This document shows positions 27,137 through 64,000 of a DNA stretch of 64,000 nucleotides, piece after piece; within the stretch, counting starts at the first letter, position 1; the number at the start of each line of letters is the position of its first letter. The stretch lies in the NCBI RefSeq assembly GCF_027359575.1, contig NZ_CP114784.1:434001-498000 (forward strand), written 5' to 3'. The position numbers and the translations under genes are program-made. The notes under the pieces are model-generated. The model saw nothing but the letters and a program-made list of their open reading frames with translations. It had not been told where the DNA came from and made no database searches. This stretch comes from Prochlorococcus marinus str. MIT 0917 (GTDB taxonomy: Bacteria > Cyanobacteriota > Cyanobacteriia > PCC-6307 > Cyanobiaceae).

Positions 27137-27296
27137 ATATTCTATTAGTTCATATATTGATCATGCAAAAATTTTATGCCCCCCCTGGTCTTTTTTTTCA
27201 TTAACTTATTACTCAGTTATGTCTAGTTCTCCCTACTAAAAATACTCATGGGAAAAAGATTCTTCAATTAGGTTAAACTCTAAAGTCTTTTTGAAC

Positions 27297-28994: not shown

Positions 28995-29049
28995 AAATAC
29001 ATAGAACTAAACTATGAATCAGCTAGTTTTTTATTTGGAAAATAAGCAT

Positions 29050-29084
29050 AAAAAAAAGGGGGATTTTATCACCCCCCCTTTTGT
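29050..29084 (-). terminator. Terminator of the riboswitch-DUF4278 unit
   Basis: aaaggggg and ccccccttt arms; on the minus strand followed by a T run (29050-29057). It sits 13 bases past the stop of the DUF4278 gene. Confidence 0.7.
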
Positions 29085-29096
29085 AAATCCATTAAA

Positions 29097-29267
29097 TTAC
29101 TTTTGGTAAGTATTACCTCTGTAAGTTAAGGATGCTTGCATCTGCTTTTTAGCTTCTGCTTGCCTAGATGTGTAGACGTTACTTCTGTAACTAAGTTCTA
29201 CAACTTTTTTTGGAGTAGCTTCTTTGTGTTGAAGGTACTCTTGGCCTCTGTAAGTAAGAACAGTCAT
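29097..29267 (-). CDS. DUF4278 small protein (copy 1)
   Basis: 56 residues. It contains three versions of the DUF4278 motif: VLTYRGQEY, VELSYRSNVY and SLTYRGNTY. PirA of Synechocystis, a PII-interacting regulator of arginine synthesis, belongs to DUF4278, so a role in nitrogen control is plausible. The gene is preceded by a pseudoknot leader like the glutamine-II/Downstream-peptide riboswitch and by an NtcA-like site. HKEATPKKVVEL is shared with the copy at 49802. Direct function is not shown by the sequence. Confidence 0.8.
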   Translation of the reverse strand: MTVLTYRGQEYLQHKEATPKKVVELSYRSNVYTSRQAEAKKQMQASLTYRGNTYQK

Positions 29268-29287
29268 TGCTCTTTCTAGTAGTGCCC

Positions 29288-29340
29288 AAGACCCCGTTCC
29301 ATGTCTCGAGTCTTACTGCAGCTTGTTATTTAGCTGAACG
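29288..29340 (-). promoter_or_regulatory. Glutamine-II / Downstream-peptide-like riboswitch (copy 1)
   Basis: Minus-strand order: CGTTC (29340-29336); hairpin CAGCT...AGCTG; AAGAC (29314-29310); GGAACGGGG (29300-29292); GTCTT (29292-29288). CGTTC can pair with GAACG, and AAGAC with GTCTT, giving an H-type pseudoknot with GAACG inside the second loop. The copy at 49995 has the same order with different stem bases. In cyanobacteria this class senses glutamine and precedes short genes. The class call rests on recalled consensus. Confidence 0.65.
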
Positions 29341-29341
29341 T

Positions 29342-29355
29342 GTATCAAATATAAC
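29342..29355 (-). promoter_or_regulatory. NtcA-like site overlapping the promoter
   Basis: Minus strand GTT-N8-TAC, one base off GTA-N8-TAC, immediately before CGTTC of the leader. A TATATT box lies inside it, a position expected to repress rather than activate. Confidence 0.4.
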
Positions 29356-49994: not shown

Positions 49995-50056
49995 GATTCA
50001 AGTCCCCGTTCCTTGGCTTGAATCGAAATGCGGCTCGCAATGTAGCGAGTTGAACG
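49995..50056 (-). promoter_or_regulatory. Glutamine-II / Downstream-peptide-like riboswitch (copy 2)
   Basis: Minus-strand order: CGTTC (50056-50052), hairpin CTCGC-TACATT-GCGAG, then GATTCAAG (50024-50017), GGAACGGGG (50012-50004), CTTGAATC (50002-49995). The 8-base stem GATTCAAG/CTTGAATC encloses GAACG, which can pair back to CGTTC, an H-type pseudoknot. Same order as copy 1 with different stem sequences, i.e. covariation. Confidence 0.7.
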
Positions 50057-50061
50057 TTTTG

Positions 50062-55967: not shown

Positions 55968-56108
55968 TCAGCCATTGAGAAAATCAATAGTGACGACAGT
56001 AAAAAATCATAATTGTGTTAGAAGAGGTTGAAGATATGATTAATGAGACAGAATTTTATATAAAAAGATGCAATGCTCTTCTTGCCTCCTAATCATCTGA
56101 TCAAATAA

Positions 56109-56393
56109 GTGGCTCTTGAAACGACAGTATTCAGCTTTAAGATTTCTGTTCCGTTTGAGCAATGGGCAGCGGTCTATGACATTGAAGAAAACAAACAACT
56201 TATGAAAGAAGAAAAAGTTGTTTGTATTTATAGAGAGAGAAAAAAAGAGGATCCAAGTAGTGCCGTTGTTATAGAGCAAGCTGAAGAAGGTAAATCAATC
56301 GCAATGTTTTCCAATCCTGAAGTAAGAACTCTAATTGAGGACGCTGGAGACATCTATGATTCAACCGTCATCACTAGTTACTTAAAAAGTTAA
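56109..56393 (+). CDS. DUF3764-like small protein (copy 3)
   Basis: 94 residues from GTG. VFSFKISVPFEQWAAVYDIE matches VFTFKVESTFDEWAAIFDSK of 10087. The end DAGDIYDSTVIT matches 26257. It lies eight bases before the lipoprotein gene 56401. Function unknown. Confidence 0.65.
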   Translation: MALETTVFSFKISVPFEQWAAVYDIEENKQLMKEEKVVCIYRERKKEDPSSAVVIEQAEEGKSIAMFSNPEVRTLIEDAGDIYDSTVITSYLKS

Positions 56394-56400
56394 TTAAAAG

Positions 56401-56652
56401 ATGAAACACTTTCTTTCTCTTGTTGTATTTGCTGTATTTATAAGTGGCTGTACCAAGAACACATCTCGAGTCAGCTCCTTAAAACCAAATGTAATCTCTG
56501 AGACTCAAAGACAAAGAGATCTTTGCCTAGATTGGTATGCTTACAGAATTGAAACTGCTAAAGCAATTTCAGACCTAAATCTCAAAACAGAAAAAGAGTC
56601 GGATTTAATGATTTATTGTGAGTTCTTTAAAAATGTAGCTGATACGAATTAA
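56401..56652 (+). CDS. Lipoprotein-type two-Cys protein (2-Cys family)
   Basis: 83 residues. MKHFLSLVVFAVFISGC ends in a lipobox (ISGC), so it is probably a lipoprotein. Mature part DLCLDWYAYRIETAKAISDL-NLKTEKES-DLMIYC fits the 2-Cys family. Function unknown. Confidence 0.7.
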   Translation: MKHFLSLVVFAVFISGCTKNTSRVSSLKPNVISETQRQRDLCLDWYAYRIETAKAISDLNLKTEKESDLMIYCEFFKNVADTN

Positions 56653-56864
56653 CTTTTTACATAGAATTGAATTAGCCCTGTAGTTTTATCTCTCGAAACT
56701 TTCTCAACGATACACAGCTTAATCAAAAATTTTTACTCTCCATTTTTTAGACTTTTCGCCTAGTTCAAAACAAAATTTAAGAACATTACAGCTTCAAATC
56801 TATGCTAGAAATATAAATGAAAGAATCATCAAATTAAAGACTTAACCAACTACAAAAAATCTAA

Positions 56865-58559
56865 ATGAGCAGTACTAAAGCTATTCAGACTACTAGAACT
56901 TTCTCTGAGTTTGCAAAACAAGCTGACTACTCATTCATGGATTCTCTCGCCCCTGATCCACAAGCAACGGATGATGGTGACGACCACCTAACAAGAGAAG
57001 TCTTTTCTGGTCACTATGTACCTGTCACTCCAACAGCAATTCCAAAACCAGAATATGTCGCTCACAGTAAAAAATTATTTAACGAGTTAGGCTTGAGTCA
57101 GGAACTAGCTCTAGATGAACTTTTTCGTCGTCTATTCTCCGGCGACATAAGTGTTGCAACAGAACCGATGCGACCAGTTGGCTGGGCTACCGGTTACGCA
57201 CTATCTATCTATGGAACTGAATATACTCAGCAGTGCCCATTCGGGACAGGTAACGGGTATGGGGATGGGAGAGCTATTTCAGTATTTGAAGGTCTCTTTA
57301 ATGGCAAAAGATGGGAGATGCAACTTAAAGGAGGAGGGCCAACACCATACTGCAGAGGAGCAGATGGACGAGCAGTGCTTCGTTCAAGTGTTCGTGAGTT
57401 TTTAGCGCAGGAATATATGCAGTCACTCGGAGTACCAACATCACGCTCTCTCACACTGTATGTCTCTAAATCTGAAACAGTCCGCAGGCCTTGGTATACA
57501 AAAGACTCCAATTCAATCGATCCAGACATATTGGTAGAAACACCAGCTGCAATCTCAACAAGAGTCGCACCATCATTTTTACGGGTAGGTCAGATAGAAC
57601 TCTTTGCACGTAGAGTACGAAACAATGAGCATCAAGATGCAATGAAAGAGCTCGAGATGATTGTGAAGCACTTAATCGTAAGAAATTACAAGGAAGAAAT
57701 TGACCCGACCCTTAGCTTTAGCAATCAAGTCGTCGAGCTCGCAAGGTCATTCCGAGAACGACTAACATCATTAGTAGCTAATTGGATACGGATTGGCTAC
57801 TGCCAAGGCAATTTCAACAGTGACAACTGTGCTGCAGGAGGTTTCACTCTCGACTACGGTCCATTTGGATTTTGCGAACTCTTCGATCCCAGATTCCAAC
57901 CTTGGACAGGAGGTGGTGAACATTTTGCATTCTTTAACCAACAAGTTGCTGCCGCAGCAAATTATCAAATGTTTTGGGGGGCGATTCGACCTCTGGTTAC
58001 CGGCAACGCAAAGGCACTTGACAGGCTAGATAACATTCGCGATGGATTTACTACAGTAATGAATCAGAAAATGGAGAACATGTGGACAAAGAAACTAGGC
58101 CTAGGCACGTATGACGCACCACTAGTAAATGAAATGCTACAGCTCATGGTTCACACAAAGGTCGACTACACAATCTTTTTCCGAAAACTTTCAAGTATTC
58201 CAAAAACACTTAAAGATTTAAAAGATAGTTTCTATTTACCAATTTCAGAAGAGATTGAGACCAAATGGATTAATTGGCTAAAAAGCTGGCGGAAGCACGT
58301 AATTAAGAGCGGTGATCAAAATGAAATATCAGCAAAAATGAAACGCATTAACCCAAAATACACATGGCGGGAATGGCTGATCACACCTGGATACGAAATA
58401 GCAGAGAAAGGCGACTATGGTCTCATTAAGGAACTACAAGCTGTTTTAGACAAACCATACGAGGAACAATCATTAGAGGTACAGAAAAAATATGACAGAC
58501 TCAAGCCCAAGAAATACTTTGGAGCCGGTGGGGTTTCCCATTACAGCTGTTCCTCATGA
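56865..58559 (+). CDS. selO: SelO-family protein adenylyltransferase (YdiU/UPF0061)
   Basis: 564 residues. [60 protein letters not shown] and [20 protein letters not shown] are the SelO pseudokinase-fold motifs; NSDN and DYG supply the metal-binding residues. SelO proteins transfer AMP to Ser/Thr/Tyr of target proteins, linked to redox stress. The C-terminus [12 protein letters not shown] matches the conserved Cys end that carries Sec in animals. CQGNFNSDN in place of the usual HGVMNTDN marks a divergent branch. Base composition looks less AT-rich than most neighbours. Confidence 0.93.
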
Positions 58560-58746
58560 ATCAACACCAGAATTTAAAATCCACTTCGCTAGGGCTATAT
58601 AATTTAAAAACAAAGTTTAATTATCTTCAATAGGAACAACAAACATAAAAAGATTCTTTGGATGACTTTTTTATATAGGTAACCGAACCAATCATTGTCT
58701 CGTTAAGTAAATAATTGACACATGATTGAAAGGTTGAATTAAAAAC

Positions 58747-58875
58747 ATGCCTGAAGATACAAAATCTAAAATCAGAATATTTCTTCCATTTAGTTGGTTC
58801 ATTCCCGCTCTCATTTCTTTTGGAGTGATTAATTTCCACCAACTTTCTGCGGGCATCCCACCCATATCCATTTAG
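58747..58875 (+). CDS. Small membrane peptide
   Basis: 42 residues: MPEDTKSKIRIFLPFSWFIP and ALISFGVINFHQLSAGIPP. One helix. It precedes the LWG peptide by four bases. A frame on the other strand overlaps it but lacks organisation. Confidence 0.45.
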   Translation: MPEDTKSKIRIFLPFSWFIPALISFGVINFHQLSAGIPPISI

Positions 58876-58879
58876 AACT

Positions 58880-59014
58880 ATGTCATCCCATATTCCTGAA
58901 TTCTACGAAACAATAGTTGAAGCTTCTGATAGAGGAGAGTTGTGGGGGATAGATCGATTTTCAAATAACATTAATAATCTTGAAATCAACTTTGATCCTT
59001 CTCTTAATAAATAA
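58880..59014 (+). CDS. 44-residue protein, LWG family (copy 2)
   Basis: MSSHIPEFYETIVEASDRGE then LWGIDRFSNNINNLEINFDP. The first half aligns with the peptide at 9706; the second half is extra. It follows a membrane peptide by four bases, the mirror of the 9706/9789 pair, where the LWG gene comes first. Function unknown. Confidence 0.5.
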   Translation: MSSHIPEFYETIVEASDRGELWGIDRFSNNINNLEINFDPSLNK

Positions 59015-59288
59015 TTCATAACCTCGTTAAAACAAATCCTCTAAACCATGAAGATAGAGAATTACTTTCTGAATTAATATCTACCTTTGACCTTAGAACT
59101 TAAGCCATCATTGGATAAAATGTAGATGGAATATTTATGTTCTAATGATTTATTGACTGAATATAATGAAGATCTATAAATGAATTAACACTTTCAATAT
59201 AATATTATTGGATCTAGAAATTTTATTTTTTCAATTCGATAGGAATTTAAAAATTTATTGAACACCCGGTAGTTAAGAAAGGAAAAAC

Positions 59289-59534
59289 TCAACTATTAAT
59301 TTTTTGCCAAATAATTTCAGCATCTCTGAAAAGGTAAATAGCTTCTTTCCTGCCAACGGCTCTTTCAGCATCATTCATCAACTTAATATACCTCTCTCTC
59401 AAAGCCTGCTTTTCCATGACAACTTTGGTAAACATATGAAAGTTTTCATGTCGATCTTCAACTTTGCTTTTGGCTACATTCTTTATAAAGCCATGCGGGT
59501 ATCTAGCTTTTACCCGAACGTTGTGCCTACTCAT
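59289..59534 (-). CDS. Basic helical hypothetical protein
   Basis: 81 residues: RVKARYPHGFIKNVAKSKVE, then ALRERYIKLMNDAERAVGRK and IYLFRDAEIIWQK. Soluble; could bind nucleic acid, by charge only. Confidence 0.5.
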   Translation of the reverse strand: MSRHNVRVKARYPHGFIKNVAKSKVEDRHENFHMFTKVVMEKQALRERYIKLMNDAERAVGRKEAIYLFRDAEIIWQKINS

Positions 59535-59613
59535 TCAACAAAATCTTGGTTACTGATTTATCACTCAAACATTCTGAAAAGGGAGATTATCAACCGCGTG
59601 TAGGGTTAACCTC

Positions 59614-59817
59614 CTATTTTTTATTCGATGCGGAAGATTTGCCTACTTCAATTCCATAGTCTTTCGCGAGTTGAATTAACTCTTGGACTGACAAGTCAAC
59701 TAAGTAACTTCGGATACATTGATAAGCATTAAAGCTCTCAATACTTTTTCTCTCATTGAACATTACACGAGAGATTCTTAGAGCTAAGGCTTCTTTAGTG
59801 AAGAGTGTACAAAACAA
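59614..59817 (-). CDS. Small SAP/Rho-N-like helical protein
   Basis: 67 residues as read; the start may be MFNERKS at 59763. LVDLSVQELIQLAKDYGIEVGKS is a two-helix hairpin like SAP or Rho N-terminal motifs (L-x2-L-x2-LAKxxGIxV). Nucleic-acid binding is inferred. Confidence 0.45.
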   Translation of the reverse strand: MFCTLFTKEALALRISRVMFNERKSIESFNAYQCIRSYLVDLSVQELIQLAKDYGIEVGKSSASNKK

Positions 59818-59955
59818 CTAGTAAAAATGATATTCAACTTGTGGATATGTGTGTGTACAAATTATCTTAAAAAAACAAAAAAAAATAAATTTAGTTGCAT
59901 TCAAATTCACACTCTGCAAATTAACCTTTTAATATTTTATTTAAATGAAATAACT

Positions 59956-60177
59956 ATGACAGAAGCAAAGAAAAACAAAAAACTTGGATTCATCCCAAAT
60001 ACGTCAAAGACTTCAGAAAAAAAAGAGGTAATTAAAGAACCCAAAGGAAGACTTATCTCTTGGTCTCCCTGGCCTCCAGCTAATTTCAAAACTCGTTACC
60101 CAGCATTCCCTTTAGTTACGACTGTTTTGATTTTGCTGATTTTACGCTGGCTGACCTTGGCTAATCAGCTTAATTAA
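59956..60177 (+). CDS. Small membrane-anchored protein
   Basis: 73 residues from ATG 59956. Basic N-terminus (TEAKKNKKLGFIPN), PKGRLISWSPWPPANFKTRY, then a C-terminal helix FPLVTTVLILLILRWLTLA. Tail-anchored plan. Upstream frame bases look non-coding. Confidence 0.55.
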   Translation: MTEAKKNKKLGFIPNTSKTSEKKEVIKEPKGRLISWSPWPPANFKTRYPAFPLVTTVLILLILRWLTLANQLN

Positions 60178-60216
60178 GTACTAGTAAACATTAAAAGTTT
60201 CTAAGCAAAGTTATTA

Positions 60217-60399
60217 TCAAAAGTGAAAATAGGGTATTTCTCTTGGGGGGTCTTGACGCGTAGAACAGATACCAAATTGCAAACACTCAATCACATCATC
60301 ATCATATTTTGGCTTGTAATTAGAAAACAAATCAGACATTTCTTTTCCGTGAATGGAGACCCCGGAAAAATTTCGAAATAATTGCTTTGAGAATGGCAT
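60217..60399 (-). CDS. ECLQFGIC peptide family (copy 1)
   Basis: 60 residues from ATG 60399 (MPFSKQLFRNFSG); a later ATG is possible. Ends DDDVIECLQFGICSTRQDPP then REIPYFHF. The ECLQFGIC core is identical in copies 2 and 3 and is preceded by acidic residues. A 55-base upstream element is shared by all three. No modifying enzyme or transporter is next to it. Function unknown. Confidence 0.75.
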   Translation of the reverse strand: MPFSKQLFRNFSGVSIHGKEMSDLFSNYKPKYDDDVIECLQFGICSTRQDPPREIPYFHF

Positions 60400-60425
60400 G
60401 GTTAGACATCTAAACAACCTGCTTA

Positions 60426-60480
60426 ATTTCTACTCATGTTGGCTTAAGAAATCTATGGGGAGGAACACTCAAGTATTTAT
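60426..60480 (-). promoter_or_regulatory. Shared 55-base upstream element (ECLQFGIC copy 1)
   Basis: On the minus strand ATAAATACTT at one end, 35 bases, then GAGTAGAAAT at the other. The 35-base middle contains GTGTT and TAGATT at aligned positions. The spacing is exactly 35 in all three copies. Confidence 0.65.
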
Positions 60481-60624
60481 ACAGTTACGGAAAACCAATT
60501 CAAGGCAACGAGACTACGGTCGAAGAATACAACCAGTGATTTACTTGAAAGACATTGTTTTATTAATACGAGGCAACTTTTTCTCCAAACTTTACTTTGG
60601 CTTTTATCGAAAAAAAAAGTTCCA

Positions 60625-60876
60625 TTATTTTGATTTTTCTCTTTGTCTAAAGCCATCCGGAGACTGAAGATAAGAAGTTTGGCCTAAATAGGGATCTTCA
60701 CCAAAAAGATCATTCATTTGCGTTTCTGTCATTTGTCTAGGAGCTTGACCAGTTTCAGTAGGATCTGATTCTATAAGAGATGAATATATTTCATCTACAT
60801 TAACAACTGCAGGACAAAGAATCAGAAGAAGACCAAGAGAGAAAGAAACAATTCTAATTAGCAATGAGTCATTCAT
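60625..60876 (-). CDS. Small secreted protein
   Basis: 83 residues from ATG 60876. Signal peptide (MNDSLLIRIVSFSLGLLLI, then LCPAVVNV), mature part SDPTETGQAPRQMTETQMND and LFGEDPYLGQTSYLQ. It is the last of three genes (61101, 60887, 60625) for exported proteins. Function unknown. Confidence 0.6.
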   Translation of the reverse strand: MNDSLLIRIVSFSLGLLLILCPAVVNVDEIYSSLIESDPTETGQAPRQMTETQMNDLFGEDPYLGQTSYLQSPDGFRQREKSK

Positions 60877-60886
60877 TTTCTTGAAA

Positions 60887-61042
60887 TTACCTATCGGTAG
60901 AATCGGAACTATCAACTTGCTCAACCGTCTCATCTTGGCTTGCTTTGTTCTTATTAGATAAAGAGCATCCCCCATCACCCCATGCCAAAACAGGAGCTGT
61001 CGTAAAAGAAAGGGCAAATACTAATTGTAAAATCTTATTCAT
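60887..61042 (-). CDS. Small secreted Cys-containing peptide
   Basis: 51 residues: signal peptide MNKILQLVFALSFTTAPVLA, mature WGDGGCSLSNKNKASQDETV, then an acidic Ser/Asp end. One Cys in the mature part. Ten bases from the next gene. Function unknown. Confidence 0.6.
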   Translation of the reverse strand: MNKILQLVFALSFTTAPVLAWGDGGCSLSNKNKASQDETVEQVDSSDSTDR

Positions 61043-61100
61043 AAGAAAAATTGGAATCAACGCAATAATAAAGCCTTTTAAGAAAGTTCGTTTACCTGAC

Positions 61101-61571
61101 TTAATTCATGTCCATTCCTATTTCCATTTCATTCATAGAAACCTCACTCTGATCATTATCTAATGGTCGTTCACTTGTTTCAGGCAAATTTTCTTCGCTT
61201 ACTTCAGGCAAAGATGGTTCAATAACTATCCCTAGAGGATTATCACCATTGTCTTCTAGAATTGTCGGCTCATCAAATAGGGACTTGTCTTCTTGATTTG
61301 TGAGAAAATCTGATTCTAATTCTGTTAAAAGATTATTATCGTCACTAGCTATTCTTTCACTTGTATCCTTTATTAGTAATTTCGAAAGATCAATAACGTC
61401 TATGATTACTGACTTCTGACTTGCATAGATATCTTGTATCACATTAATTATTTCACCAGATTTTGTGGGTTGGGAAATAAAAGAAAAACAAGTCCAGCCA
61501 GCAAGAACAATTGAGATTAAGACAAAAGAAATAAAAGCAGAATACATAGCTCTTATTATTGTTTTGATCAT
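61101..61571 (-). CDS. Membrane-anchored acidic exported protein
   Basis: 156 residues: N-terminal anchor (SAFISFVLISIVLAGWTCF), then a helical part and a long acidic, Glu/Pro/Ser-rich stretch (EPSLPEVSEENLPETSERP), ending MNEMEIGMDMN. First gene of a three-gene exported set. Low-complexity tail. Function unknown. Confidence 0.6.
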   Translation of the reverse strand: MIKTIIRAMYSAFISFVLISIVLAGWTCFSFISQPTKSGEIINVIQDIYASQKSVIIDVIDLSKLLIKDTSERIASDDNNLLTELESDFLTNQEDKSLFDEPTILEDNGDNPLGIVIEPSLPEVSEENLPETSERPLDNDQSEVSMNEMEIGMDMN

Positions 61572-61649
61572 TCGGTAACTTTAGATATTGTTAAATCTAG
61601 GCACATCATTTAATACTTAAAACAGCCTCTTCACACCCTGTAAAGGCGT

Positions 61650-61704
61650 ATAAATACTTTAGGGTTTACTCTCTAGATTTTTGCTACCCGATTAGAGTAG
61701 AAAT
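61650..61704 (+). promoter_or_regulatory. Shared 55-base upstream element (ECLQFGIC copy 2)
   Basis: ATAAATACTT ... TAGATTTTT ... GAGTAGAAAT with 35 bases between. GTAAAGGC precedes it, as before copy 3. Confidence 0.7.
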
Positions 61705-61731
61705 ATTTAAGTGTATTTAGGGAGCTTAATT

Positions 61732-61899
61732 ATGTCTTTTAATCCACTCAAACCTTTAATTCATAAAATCCAAGCATTATTGCCCATTAATATTCAATCG
61801 GAAAAACAACAAAAAGATGAGGAACAGGAATGCTTACAGTTTGGGATTTGTGGTATACAAGGCCAATCACCTAGACCCGAAGAGTTATATTTTGGATAA
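61732..61899 (+). CDS. ECLQFGIC peptide family (copy 2)
   Basis: 55 residues from ATG 61732, with AGGGAG seven bases upstream. MSFNPLKPLIHKIQALLPIN, then KDEEQECLQFGICGIQGQSP and RPEELYFG. N-terminal half is an amphipathic helix. Same core as copies 1 and 3. Confidence 0.78.
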   Translation: MSFNPLKPLIHKIQALLPINIQSEKQQKDEEQECLQFGICGIQGQSPRPEELYFG

Positions 61900-61913
61900 A
61901 AATAAATCCAGCA

Positions 61914-62054
61914 CTATGCCACTTTAGAAATATTTTCAATAAATTCATCTAATTCTTGACATTTTCGTTCTAGATAAATGATCTTTTTGGTTTCCGTCAT
62001 TTCATCAGAATAAAATTTTACCGGCAAATGAGAAAGCAGGTTATCGCCGCTCAT
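61914..62054 (-). CDS. MSGDNLL family small protein (copy 2)
   Basis: 46 residues. MSGDNLLSHLPVKFYSDEMT, ETKKIIYLERKCQELDEFIE. Aligns with 37931 and adds one Cys. Lies between two ECLQFGIC genes but on the other strand. Function unknown. Confidence 0.6.
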   Translation of the reverse strand: MSGDNLLSHLPVKFYSDEMTETKKIIYLERKCQELDEFIENISKVA

Positions 62055-62229
62055 CAATCAAGCTCCAATTAATTTTCAATCTATTAAACCTAATAATCTA
62101 AAAAAACCAATTTCTACAACTATTAAAATGTTTTTTACCTCACTTTAAAATAATCACTGATTTTCCAGAGATATAAGTTTATCAAAATGTACAAATCTTG
62201 AAAGACTAACTATTGTTTATCGTAAAGGC

Positions 62230-62284
62230 ATAAATACTTAAGTGTTTATTCTCTAGGTATCATTCACCGCATAGGAGTAGAAAT
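62230..62284 (+). promoter_or_regulatory. Shared 55-base upstream element (ECLQFGIC copy 3)
   Basis: ATAAATACTT, 35 bases with TAGGTAT, then GAGTAGAAAT, ending five bases before the GTG start. Confidence 0.7.
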
Positions 62285-62289
62285 AAATT

Positions 62290-62496
62290 GTGAACATTCG
62301 ACATCTTATGTCCTACGGAAATAGCTTTGCTCAATTGACTACAGAGGCTGCAGAAAATGCTGCCCGACTTGTTCTTAGTCAACTATCTAAAAGACTGAGT
62401 TTTGCAAAGCATCCATCAAACAACGATGAAGAAATGGAGTGCTTGCAATTTGGTATCTGTTCTTATCAAACTCAACCACAAAGAATAAATTTCTAA
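62290..62496 (+). CDS. ECLQFGIC peptide family (copy 3)
   Basis: 68 residues from GTG 62290; ATG 62308 (MSYGNSFAQLTTEA) is the better match to the N-terminal lengths of copies 1 and 2. Helical Ala-rich middle, then NDEEMECLQFGICSYQTQPQ and RINF. Followed 10 bases later by a tiny membrane peptide. Confidence 0.78.
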   Translation: MNIRHLMSYGNSFAQLTTEAAENAARLVLSQLSKRLSFAKHPSNNDEEMECLQFGICSYQTQPQRINF

Positions 62497-62506
62497 AAAG
62501 GCTCAA

Positions 62507-62584
62507 ATGAAATACACTGAACTAATTTTAATATTTTCTTCATTATCATTGACTTTTTTAGGGTTCTCTTTTCTCGCTATTTAA
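62507..62584 (+). CDS. 25-residue membrane peptide
   Basis: MKYTELILIFSSLSLTFLGF then SFLAI, a single hydrophobic helix 10 bases after the ECLQFGIC gene. Possibly an operon partner. Confidence 0.4.
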   Translation: MKYTELILIFSSLSLTFLGFSFLAI

Positions 62585-62644
62585 GAAAGAATAAACCTTA
62601 AAAAATATTAGATTGCATCTTTATTTTGCTAAATAGCTTAATAG

Positions 62645-62977
62645 TCATTGATTATCAGAGTCCTCCAAAAGATCAGAATATTCTGGTGACTTTGCTATCG
62701 GCAACTCAGAAGCGCTATTGGTTGACCTGACTAACAAAGCAGTTAATTCTGCTGTCCTTTTATTATTAACAACATTGCTACCATGAGCTGAAACCGCTGC
62801 TCCAGCGACAAGGGCAGTGATTGGCTTCCACCACTGCAAAGATTTTAAATCGTTCTTTTCAACTTCCGCCAAGAGAAAACCTATACCAAACAAAATACCA
62901 AAGACAGCTCCTGACCATTGGCATATTTCGGCAAAAATAGATTTACTTTTTTCGGCGGCATTAATTTGGTCTTCCAT
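62645..62977 (-). CDS. Membrane protein with LLEDSD C-terminus
   Basis: 110 residues: two helices (FAEICQWSGAVFGILFGIGF and ITALVAGAAVSAHGSNVV), polar tail ending PEYSDLLEDSDNQ. The final YSxLLEDS recurs in the small gene at 63179. Function unknown. Confidence 0.55.
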   Translation of the reverse strand: MEDQINAAEKSKSIFAEICQWSGAVFGILFGIGFLLAEVEKNDLKSLQWWKPITALVAGAAVSAHGSNVVNNKRTAELTALLVRSTNSASELPIAKSPEYSDLLEDSDNQ

Positions 62978-63094
62978 TTGGTAAAAAGCGAAAACTAAAA
63001 ATGTGATTTCTTAATTAATATAAAAGCACTTTTTGAATCTAATGAACATAAGTAATTAATCCAATATAAATGATGCATAAACAAAGGTTGAATC

Positions 63095-63208
63095 ATGTCT
63101 AATAAAAAACAAGCAAAGATATTCATAAAAAAGAAAATGACAATGAGAAAAATATCAAAAGTAATTCAGCAGTTTTCATTACCACTCAGAATCTTCCAAA
63201 AGATTTGA
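63095..63208 (+). CDS. Very small basic peptide
   Basis: 37 residues, MSNKKQAKIFIKKKMTMRKI and onward, strongly basic. It overlaps the minus-strand gene at 63179 and may be spurious. Confidence 0.2.
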   Translation: MSNKKQAKIFIKKKMTMRKISKVIQQFSLPLRIFQKI

Positions 63209-63286
63209 ATATTGTTCGTAATTGAAGAAAATATCTTCTTCTAAAACTTCTTCTAAAGAAACGCTTTTAAAGTAGGTGATTTTCAT
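63179..63286 (-). CDS. 35-residue peptide with LLEDS end
   Basis: MKITYFKSVSLEEVLEEDIF then NYEQYSNLLEDSEW. The end matches the C-terminus of 62645, and the DNA there is also similar, so it may descend from a partial duplication. Function unknown. Confidence 0.4.
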   Translation of the reverse strand: MKITYFKSVSLEEVLEEDIFFNYEQYSNLLEDSEW

Positions 63287-63552
63287 TTGATGCTTTTTAC
63301 AATCATCTATTGATAGAAACAAAAGCGTGAGTGAGTGATATTCGGTTTACAAGGTTCGGTTTGATTTACTCATGCTTTGCCACTTTCGACCTTAGCGATA
63401 ACCAAGAGATATCTTTGATGAAACTAATTTGCTTATCAACATCATTTTGATCGAATAACATTTTTATTATTAAAAGTGTGTTGTGGTAATTTTTTCTTAT
63501 TAATTGATGCAAACTTATTTAAATCATTAGCAGATTCATGATCAAGATGCCC

Positions 63553-63810
63553 ACATGAGGGGGGCTGAAATTTTTGCTCAATATGTTGAAAGTGGTTCGA
63601 ATCAGACAAGCTTTAAGGTTTCGAGGTCATCAACAGAGTCCTGAATCCTGATGACGCAAGTGGATGGCGATTGTAAAAGAATTCGATCACAAACCAGTTT
63701 GGAATTATGTCAGCCTTTGTGTAAGGGGTTTGATCATGATATTGAGGTTATTCCTGTTCTTACAGATGATGAATATCTTGATGTTCATAAATAGTTGGAT
63801 TAGAGACCAA
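63553..63810 (+). pseudogene. Probable gene remnant
   Basis: MRGAEIFAQYVESGSNQTSF runs to a stop at about 63643; another frame from GTG near 63661 reads VDGDCKRIRSQTSLELCQPL and DHDIEVIPVLTDDEYLDVHK. Both look partly coding but do not join. Possibly a decayed gene. Confidence 0.2.
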
Positions 63811-63920
63811 AGATTTAAGTCAGAGGGTTATTTAAACAAACACTCACCAAAATTCATACTAGATGCAAAAAGTTAAAAGACATTTCTAGAAGAAGTAGTT
63901 TTTAATAGACACTAAAAGTC

Positions 63921-64000
63921 TTAACTCAAATGAAATACCTTATCGCTAAGTACAAAAATCAAAAGTCCGATCGAACTCATTGCAAGTAAAATCCCACCAA
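63921..64000 (-). CDS. Membrane protein fragment (5' end outside the window)
   Basis: The minus-strand frame GGILLAMSSIGLLIFVLSDK then VFHLS ends at TAA 63921-63923. One hydrophobic helix is visible; the start lies beyond base 64000. Confidence 0.4.
   Translation of the reverse strand, partial: GGILLAMSSIGLLIFVLSDKVFHLS

Follow-up and report, generated by a model that had tools for sequence, protein, structure and literature searches.

Three small-protein genes and their upstream elements

The genome of Prochlorococcus marinus str. MIT 0917 is a single contig of 1,924,674 bases (NZ_CP114784.1), of which we analysed the 64,000 nucleotides (nt) at positions 434001-498000, hereafter the window. 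Close to the 3′ end of the window lie three short open reading frames (ORFs), P1, P2 and P3, that all encode the peptide core ECLQFGIC, and 5′ of each stands a 55-base element of the form ATAAATACTT-N35-GAGTAGAAAT. An initial annotation, made from the letters of the window, had reported both the cores and the elements, and we found both where it had placed them. In the following list, positions are those of the window, and E values refer to a model of the element that was built with the P2 and P3 copies and a P1-type copy and of which they are not independent.

60217..60399, minus strand: P1 (type B) ORF, 60 amino acids (aa), MPFSKQLF...KYDDDVIECLQFGICSTRQDPPREIPYFHF
60426..60480, minus strand: 55-base element of P1, with AATACTT box, TAGATT and GAGTAGAAAT leader (E 1.9e-17)
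61650..61704, plus strand: 55-base element of P2 (E 3.6e-15)
61732..61899, plus strand: P2 (type C) ORF, 55 aa, MSFNPLKPL...ECLQFGICGIQGQSPRPEELYFG
62230..62284, plus strand: 55-base element of P3 (E 2e-17)
62308..62496, plus strand: P3 (type D) ORF, 62 aa counted from ATG, MSYGNSFAQLTTEAAENAARLVLSQL...DEEMECLQFGICSYQTQPQRINF

Several details of the initial annotation had to be revised. It began P3 at GTG 62290, a possible but unlikely start; ATG 62308 (MSYGN...) is the most likely one, because several relatives differ in reading frame 5′ of MSYGN. The N-terminal halves, described as different, do differ among P1, P2 and P3, yet they are conserved inside each type, and the proposed tail S/G-x-Q-x-x-PxR fits loosely and not as a strict rule. 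The family was also called three-copy, whereas a profile search located five copies in this genome (494220, 495732, 496308, 1363530 and 1747469), two of them outside the window cluster.

A small-protein family with a two-cysteine core

Sequence comparison places P1-P3 in a Prochlorococcus-lineage family of predicted proteins that are small and acidic and whose core has the form C-x5-C. Its members, ~49-70 aa long, consist of an amphipathic N-terminal stretch, a linker, the core D-[DE]-x-x-E-C-[LM]-Q-F-G-I-C and a short tail. In aligned members the N-terminal stretch often reads M[ST]CGNP[FYI]KH, and tails differ by type: EIPYFHF in P1, PRPEELYFG in P2, QPQRVNF in P3 and SMDY in both copies of this genome outside the window. 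The amphipathic N-termini contain no transmembrane span. AlphaFold models gave a mean predicted local distance difference test (pLDDT) score of 62 for P1 and of 70 for P3, the latter with helices at residues 3-34 and 38-48.

We searched 300 genomes of the same taxonomic family with a degenerate ECLQFGIC pattern that allowed at most one mismatch and obtained matches in 47, comprising all 24 genomes of the same genus and 23 genomes in four other genera; homologs thus exist well beyond the three loci, the absence of which the initial annotation had named as grounds for giving up its proposal. A cluster like that of the window was represented by three matches in 16 of the 24 same-genus genomes, by two in 4 and by none in 4, some of these genomes being incomplete. 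In an order-level sample, 31 of 120 genomes, from three genera, had a match at E<=0.01. Of the other 89, 69 were outside the listing; those listed include genomes of g5, g6, g10, g30, g35, g40 and g46 and also some members of g11 and of g18, a genus with matches. A search of genome contigs with P3 returned 18 loci, every record being Prochlorococcus, and copies per genome reach five or six.

Across 85 distinct cores, Glu at -1 was present in 85, Gln in 84 and Asp at -5 in 80, in a set for which the collecting pattern demanded both cysteines and FG and the 300-genome pattern favoured Glu and Gln. The ratio of non-synonymous to synonymous substitution (dN/dS, taken as the ratio of means over 116-120 sampled pairs per type) was ~0.17 for type B (P1-type, 24 distinct homologous coding sequences), ~0.33 for type C (P2-type, 21), ~0.20 for type D (P3-type, 22) and 0.08 for type E. 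These values of 0.08-0.33, like the ~0.07 of a hydrophobic 25-aa ORF beside P3 (see below), indicate purifying selection and therefore that the ORFs are coding.

The family matched little in reference collections. No Pfam match below 0.08 was obtained among 22 members, P1-P3 likewise had no Pfam match, P1-P3 had no NCBIfam match at E<=1, and the members searched had no convincing relative in PDB or PHROGs. Three members compared with 50,697 phage records gave no match, or only matches at E>=0.3, and viral contigs contained no exact core match and 40 pattern matches, none of which was confirmed as a relative. We rejected a phage origin, as no phage or viral-contig relative was found: the single PHROGs hit, to phrog_987 (E 0.0028), came from 1 of the 22 members, and tblastn with three members was empty. 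Nor did we find the family described, in a literature search that missed most subscription papers and supplementary tables; its genes were not found in the parts available to us of PMC7368042, PMC5974335 and PMC6778093.

The upstream element as a promoter/leader-like module

The exact element occurs three times in the whole genome, each time in the window, and 0 times in 100 dinucleotide shuffles of the window. A relaxed pattern (AATACTT, 26-38 bases, AGTAGA) gave seven genome matches, four at family genes and three elsewhere, and its reverse gave three, so that in this genome the element comes close to being exclusive to the family. Among 124 family records, 71 have exact AATACT followed by exact GAGTAGA, with a gap of 34-37 bases in 66 and of 24 bases in 5, and many of the remaining records have at least one mismatch in the boxes. 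The exact flanks and 35-base gap of the initial annotation are therefore a property of the window's copies, many other family records being mismatched, differently spaced or weak; in other genera, the stretch between the boxes is ~12 bases shorter in some copies. In an alignment of 87 copies, AATACT was exact in 79 and GAGTAGA in 75, a constancy that is partly by construction because copies were admitted at no more than one mismatch in both boxes; one aligned copy (L006), inside another ORF, is spurious. The element model also matched weakly at 27217-27291 on the minus strand of the window (E 0.0037 for the window and 0.108 for the whole genome), at a sequence with GGGAGAACTAGACATAA, probably by chance.

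Taken together, the family and the near-exclusivity of the element support the annotated view of related small proteins with a common upstream element, and each of P1-P3 is preceded by a common module that resembles a promoter and leader: an AATACTT box, a TA-rich hexamer and GGAGTAGAAAT. Two hexamers are candidates for its -10 box. One is AATACT, as in TTCACA-N17-AATACT 5′ of P2, although the scan that yielded this candidate counted 9 promoter-like sites against a shuffle mean of 10.1. The other is a TAGATT-like hexamer closer to GAGTAG, whose position, as the automatic best hexamer over 76 copies, was 14 bases in 24, 11 bases in 21, 18 bases in 9 and other distances in fewer; this non-uniform position counts against a clean TAGATT-type reading. 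We would nevertheless slightly prefer the TAGATT-like hexamer, because, by eye, the high-light linked RNAs (see below) that we viewed have no AATACT but do retain TATC[AT]T, 13 bases 5′ of GGAGTAG. A T4-type late promoter, the strict box of which is TATAAATA, was rejected, types E and F and some copies of types B and D showing GTTAATACT, AAAAATACT or ATTAATACT.

A structured RNA with the same leader

The leader of the element also heads a separate RNA that is predicted to be structured and to end in a terminator, and that is often encoded near family genes, a link that had escaped the initial annotation. With a model of the element that uses sequence only (R1), we obtained six genome matches at E<1e-3, five at family genes and one at a linked RNA, with 150 of 2682 first-look candidates scored and matches listed down to E ~0.6. 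Some R1 matches are followed by no family ORF and, in its place, by a short stretch that contains a hairpin and a terminator. From four such sequences found through R1 we built a covariance model (R2), which matched 30 of 36 genomes at E<=0.01 and 27 at E<=1e-5, the 36 being hand-picked and weighted to Prochlorococcus. The genomes in this set without a match at E<=0.01 were G110, G161, G003, G039, G004 and G009.

Over 39 matches (36 distinct rows), 93.9% of the cells in the R2 structure were paired, compared with 88.9% after shuffling and 35-52% after sliding, and 12 pairs were changed on both sides, with 35 such cells, compared with 4.9 and 7.1 in shuffles; because it was made by fitting to the model, the alignment is biased towards it. 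Among the best 52 of the 65 R2 matches listed, 43 lie in genomes with a family gene and 9 in genomes without one. Of these 43, 19 fall within 2.5 kilobases (kb) of a family gene, against ~0.27 expected under uniform placement, and these cases are not independent because the genomes are related; three of the 19 are founders of R2, and removal of the four founders leaves 16 of 39. In the loci scanned, no Rfam family matched the linked RNA; for RF02363 this covers, at E<=1, the seven scanned loci that contain the RNA. The linked RNA may already carry a published name.

The window itself has no convincing R2 match; the best (E 0.0032), at 29048-29160, resembles by eye the end of a YRG-type ORF and its terminator. 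Other copies vary in their surroundings. In the low-light loci L097 (8960-9350), L179, L180 and L184, a small ORF that by eye starts MTRKRDKIWTAII or MNRKRDKIWTAII comes after the linked RNA (in L180, after a diverged copy of it), and in L097 the stretch from this ORF to the ECLQFGNC gene contains another copy of the leader, which has its own hairpin. At L178 (G270:C1:135048-135126) the first stem by eye continues into an apparent open frame, RYDELFEDEDIAEAHG, with no terminator, perhaps as a rearranged copy. Known RNAs were also recorded: Cyano-1 RNAs (RF01701) lie ~1 kb from ECLQFGNC or ECVQFGNC copies (L059 2635-2699, L131 2077-2141, L179 1260-1324 and L184 37-101), the MED4 Cyano-1 match coincides with Yfr3, and the window has two glutamine-II riboswitch matches over the gathering score, at 29285-29343 and 49997-50059, both on the minus strand.

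Hydrophobic ORFs beside family genes

Ten bases 3′ of P3 begins a further short ORF.

62507..62584, plus strand: hydrophobic 25-aa ORF, MKYTELILIFSSLSLTFLGFSFLAI

This ORF stands 3′ of 19 of 22 same-genus type-D loci; its 18 distinct sequences have a mean dN of 0.033 and dS of 0.446, and its hydropathy is 2.17 across 19 residues. Two other ORFs that are hydrophobic by eye adjoin the family, one of 44 aa 3′ of type-E copies (18 of 20 rows) and one of 53-54 aa 5′ of the ECMQFGIC gene in G152 and G117. The initial annotation had proposed membrane association through the N-terminal helix, which the amphipathic N-termini and the hydrophobic ORFs beside some types suggest but do not go beyond suggesting, since the N-termini have no transmembrane span. 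On the other side of the cluster, a small ORF, MTEAKKNKK...LVTTVLILLILRWLTLANQLN (59957-60177, plus strand), is hydrophobic in its C-terminal half and converges on P1, with 39 bases between the ends; a Pfam search with it gave no match.

Proposed role and competing explanations

The reading that we favour, tentatively and as possible rather than probable, is that the family consists of co-expressed intracellular small proteins with two cysteines, which would combine amphipathic docking with a Cys-x5-Cys switch in a light, redox or stress response. Under a single condition, the upstream module would drive co-expression of the family and the linked RNA from short transcripts of their own, and the protein would act inside the cell, where its amphipathic N-terminus may dock on the membrane or on a small membrane protein, a hydrophobic mini-ORF being adjacent in several types. 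The acidic Cys-x5-Cys core, reduced, oxidised or metal-bound, would then switch binding to a partner, and the choice among partners would depend on the N-terminus of each type. The setting would probably be the response of a streamlined phototroph to light, redox change or stress, a suggestion drawn from the cysteines and from a MED4 copy ~400 nt from the RNA Yfr16, neither of which is a test of the window genes. A broader and somewhat more doubtful proposal is a dispersed module in which one promoter/leader cassette is coupled to a structured RNA and to a two-cysteine family paired with tiny membrane proteins, forming a combined RNA-protein response system, with type-specific versions, in a regulator-poor genome.

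Several observations weigh against this proposed role. The docking and the cysteine switch lack structural support because both models are of low confidence, and the redox link is drawn by analogy from the cysteines. The pair itself is not absolute, given that profile matches include ECLTYGFC, NKCLQFGNC and ECIQFGIS, that one copy ends ECLQFDNG and that two relatives starting MSCGKPLKH have no Cys pair. The 25-aa ORF stands 3′ of 0 of 7 type-D-like loci in other genera, and there is no hydrophobic mini-ORF in the 150 nt 3′ of P1 or P2, nor one directly 3′ of their counterparts. Directly upstream of the gene, 31 records, most high-light copies among them, have no element or a weak one, and the same-genus genomes G110 and G161 carry P1-P3 with no linked-RNA match at the threshold given above.

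Two alternatives concern the RNA level. The upstream bases might be a target of a small RNA or a riboregulator and not a promoter, in keeping with GAGTAGAAAT lying 23-27 nt 5′ of the P1-P3 ATG, beyond the normal distance of a ribosome-binding site, and with the weak hairpins that single-sequence folds often give for types C and D and the small consensus folds of types C, E and F. A hairpin common to all types was rejected, with 0 pairs over 14 mixed-type copies, the consensus folds of types A, B and D were likewise 0, and two promoter-like readings are available, which makes such an element unlikely. Attenuation seems to us improbable to a similar degree: here the element would drive a terminator-ended structured leader, the small ORF would be expressed by read-through, and low-light copies would have lost the hairpin and kept promoter and leader. 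The RNA does lie 69-270 nt 5′ of a same-strand ECMQFGIC gene in G312, G229, G220, G117, G017 and G288, and the other conserved small ORF that follows it in low-light genomes would fit; however, the high-light copies viewed have, by eye, a second promoter-like stretch between terminator and gene, in low-light genomes the RNA and the ECLQFGNC gene mostly point away from each other, and the leaders of P1-P3 have no terminator hairpin.

The remaining alternatives concern the proteins. Secretion or modification, which the initial annotation had left open, finds no support in matches to known families. Small size, multiple copies and a conserved Cys-bearing C-terminus would suit secreted or processed signals or bacteriocins, similar to ribosomally synthesized and post-translationally modified peptides (RiPPs), with the ECLQFGIC end active. 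The proteins matched no precursor family (NCBIfam for three proteins at E<=1, Pfam for 22 members) and have by eye no signal-like N-terminus, and no enzyme or exporter was recognisable among the ORFs at 56000-64000 (judged by eye, with Pfam run on four and giving no significant match, and no systematic search made). RiPP leaders usually keep the N-terminal part conserved while the C-terminal part varies, the reverse of the conserved C-terminal and variable N-terminal parts seen here, and we consider this reading very unlikely. Less remote, and still quite unlikely, is a toxin-antitoxin or phage-response module in which the toxin would be a hydrophobic mini-protein, controlled by the ECLQFGIC protein or by the linked RNA. 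Short hydrophobic ORFs do adjoin types D and E, and Yfr16, near the MED4 copy, is in genomic island 2, home of phage-induced genes, according to PMC2518516. The two-gene pairing is not universal, with no hydrophobic ORF directly 3′ of types B and C, phage and viral-contig relatives are absent from the searches described, and 16 of the 24 genomes of the genus hold three matches in a cluster, a stability of the locus that a mobile addiction unit would not be expected to show.

A multi-copy family under purifying selection, with a common start region and a linked RNA, would locate part of the regulation of Prochlorococcus, described in PMC2518516 as very abundant and as having few regulatory proteins. 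The family genes are short enough to escape common annotation limits, and the element, the core and the RNA model are short markers that can be used on existing differential RNA sequencing, metatranscriptome and proteome data.

Comparison with known systems

Small proteins with Cys pairs in cyanobacteria and short transcripts that share a leader have both been described (PMC5126843 and PMC1242208); within the literature searched, we found no earlier description of the ECLQFGIC family or of a structured RNA linked to it. The shared-leader kind is exemplified by Yfr6 and 'cluster 53', short mRNAs of Prochlorococcus and Synechococcus that share ~40 nucleotides at their 5′ ends, according to PMC1242208, and that resemble the ECLQFGIC genes as a group of short transcripts with a common 5′ untranslated region. 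Identity with Yfr6 was rejected, the peptide at the MED4 coordinates, MTLIYRGQKYVQNK..., being unrelated and the element not being seen in the Yfr6 leader, and neither a YRG-type peptide nor the cluster 53 leader was found in the family.

Yfr11 and Yfr16 (Rfam RF02363) come close in position. According to PMC2518516, Yfr16 is listed in genomic island 2 and follows the responses of Yfr11 to light and to 3-(3,4-dichlorophenyl)-1,1-dimethylurea (DCMU), less strongly. Yfr16 and the ECMQFGIC operon of MED4 are encoded divergently, and one family copy in G288 has an RF02363 match ~400 nt away. By eye, there is a match near the 5′ end, GGATTAGAAAT. Unlike the linked RNA, Yfr16 has no R2 match in G152 at E<=0.01, and RF02363 had no match at the gathering score at the window element. 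We dropped Yfr16 as a homologue that could fix the start site: it is absent from the R1 and R2 matches listed for G152, and the matching bases are the ribosome-binding site (GGAGG) and ATG of a conserved 13-codon ORF, so that the resemblance is probably convergent. Yfr16, Yfr11 and a third RF02363 match (L092 9529-9392, minus strand; L185; L100 9909-10087, plus strand) share GGAGG, ATG and this ORF, which by eye reads MIDSPPE[KN][FL][IM]RLV and then stops, and these RNAs may be dual-function or leader-peptide RNAs.

Among proteins, NsiR6 and the Norf proteins are cyanobacterial micro-proteins, several of them stress-responsive, and NsiR6 has conserved Cys pairs, according to PMC5126843. NsiR6 differs in having two Cys pairs, one of them CPVC, and in occurring throughout the cyanobacterial phylum (PMC5126843), whereas the ECLQFGIC family turned up in only five genera of the family sample. 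Near ECMQFGIC genes, L092, L093 and L094 encode several other tiny Cys proteins, for example ones that end WDQECMAHPANSHCKIYCD or HKECELNPSNPHCLVYED, which resemble the CP12 C-terminus by eye; two of them run against Pfam gave no match. The Pfam CP12 profile had no match at E<=1 for P1-P3 or the 22 members. CP12 and CP12-like proteins are, like the family, small acidic phototroph proteins with Cys pairs, spaced in CP12 otherwise than x5. The ECLQFGIC family, proposed here as a redox-switched adaptor, differs from CP12 in its amphipathic N-terminal stretch, its multiple copies, its own leader and its x5 cysteine spacing.

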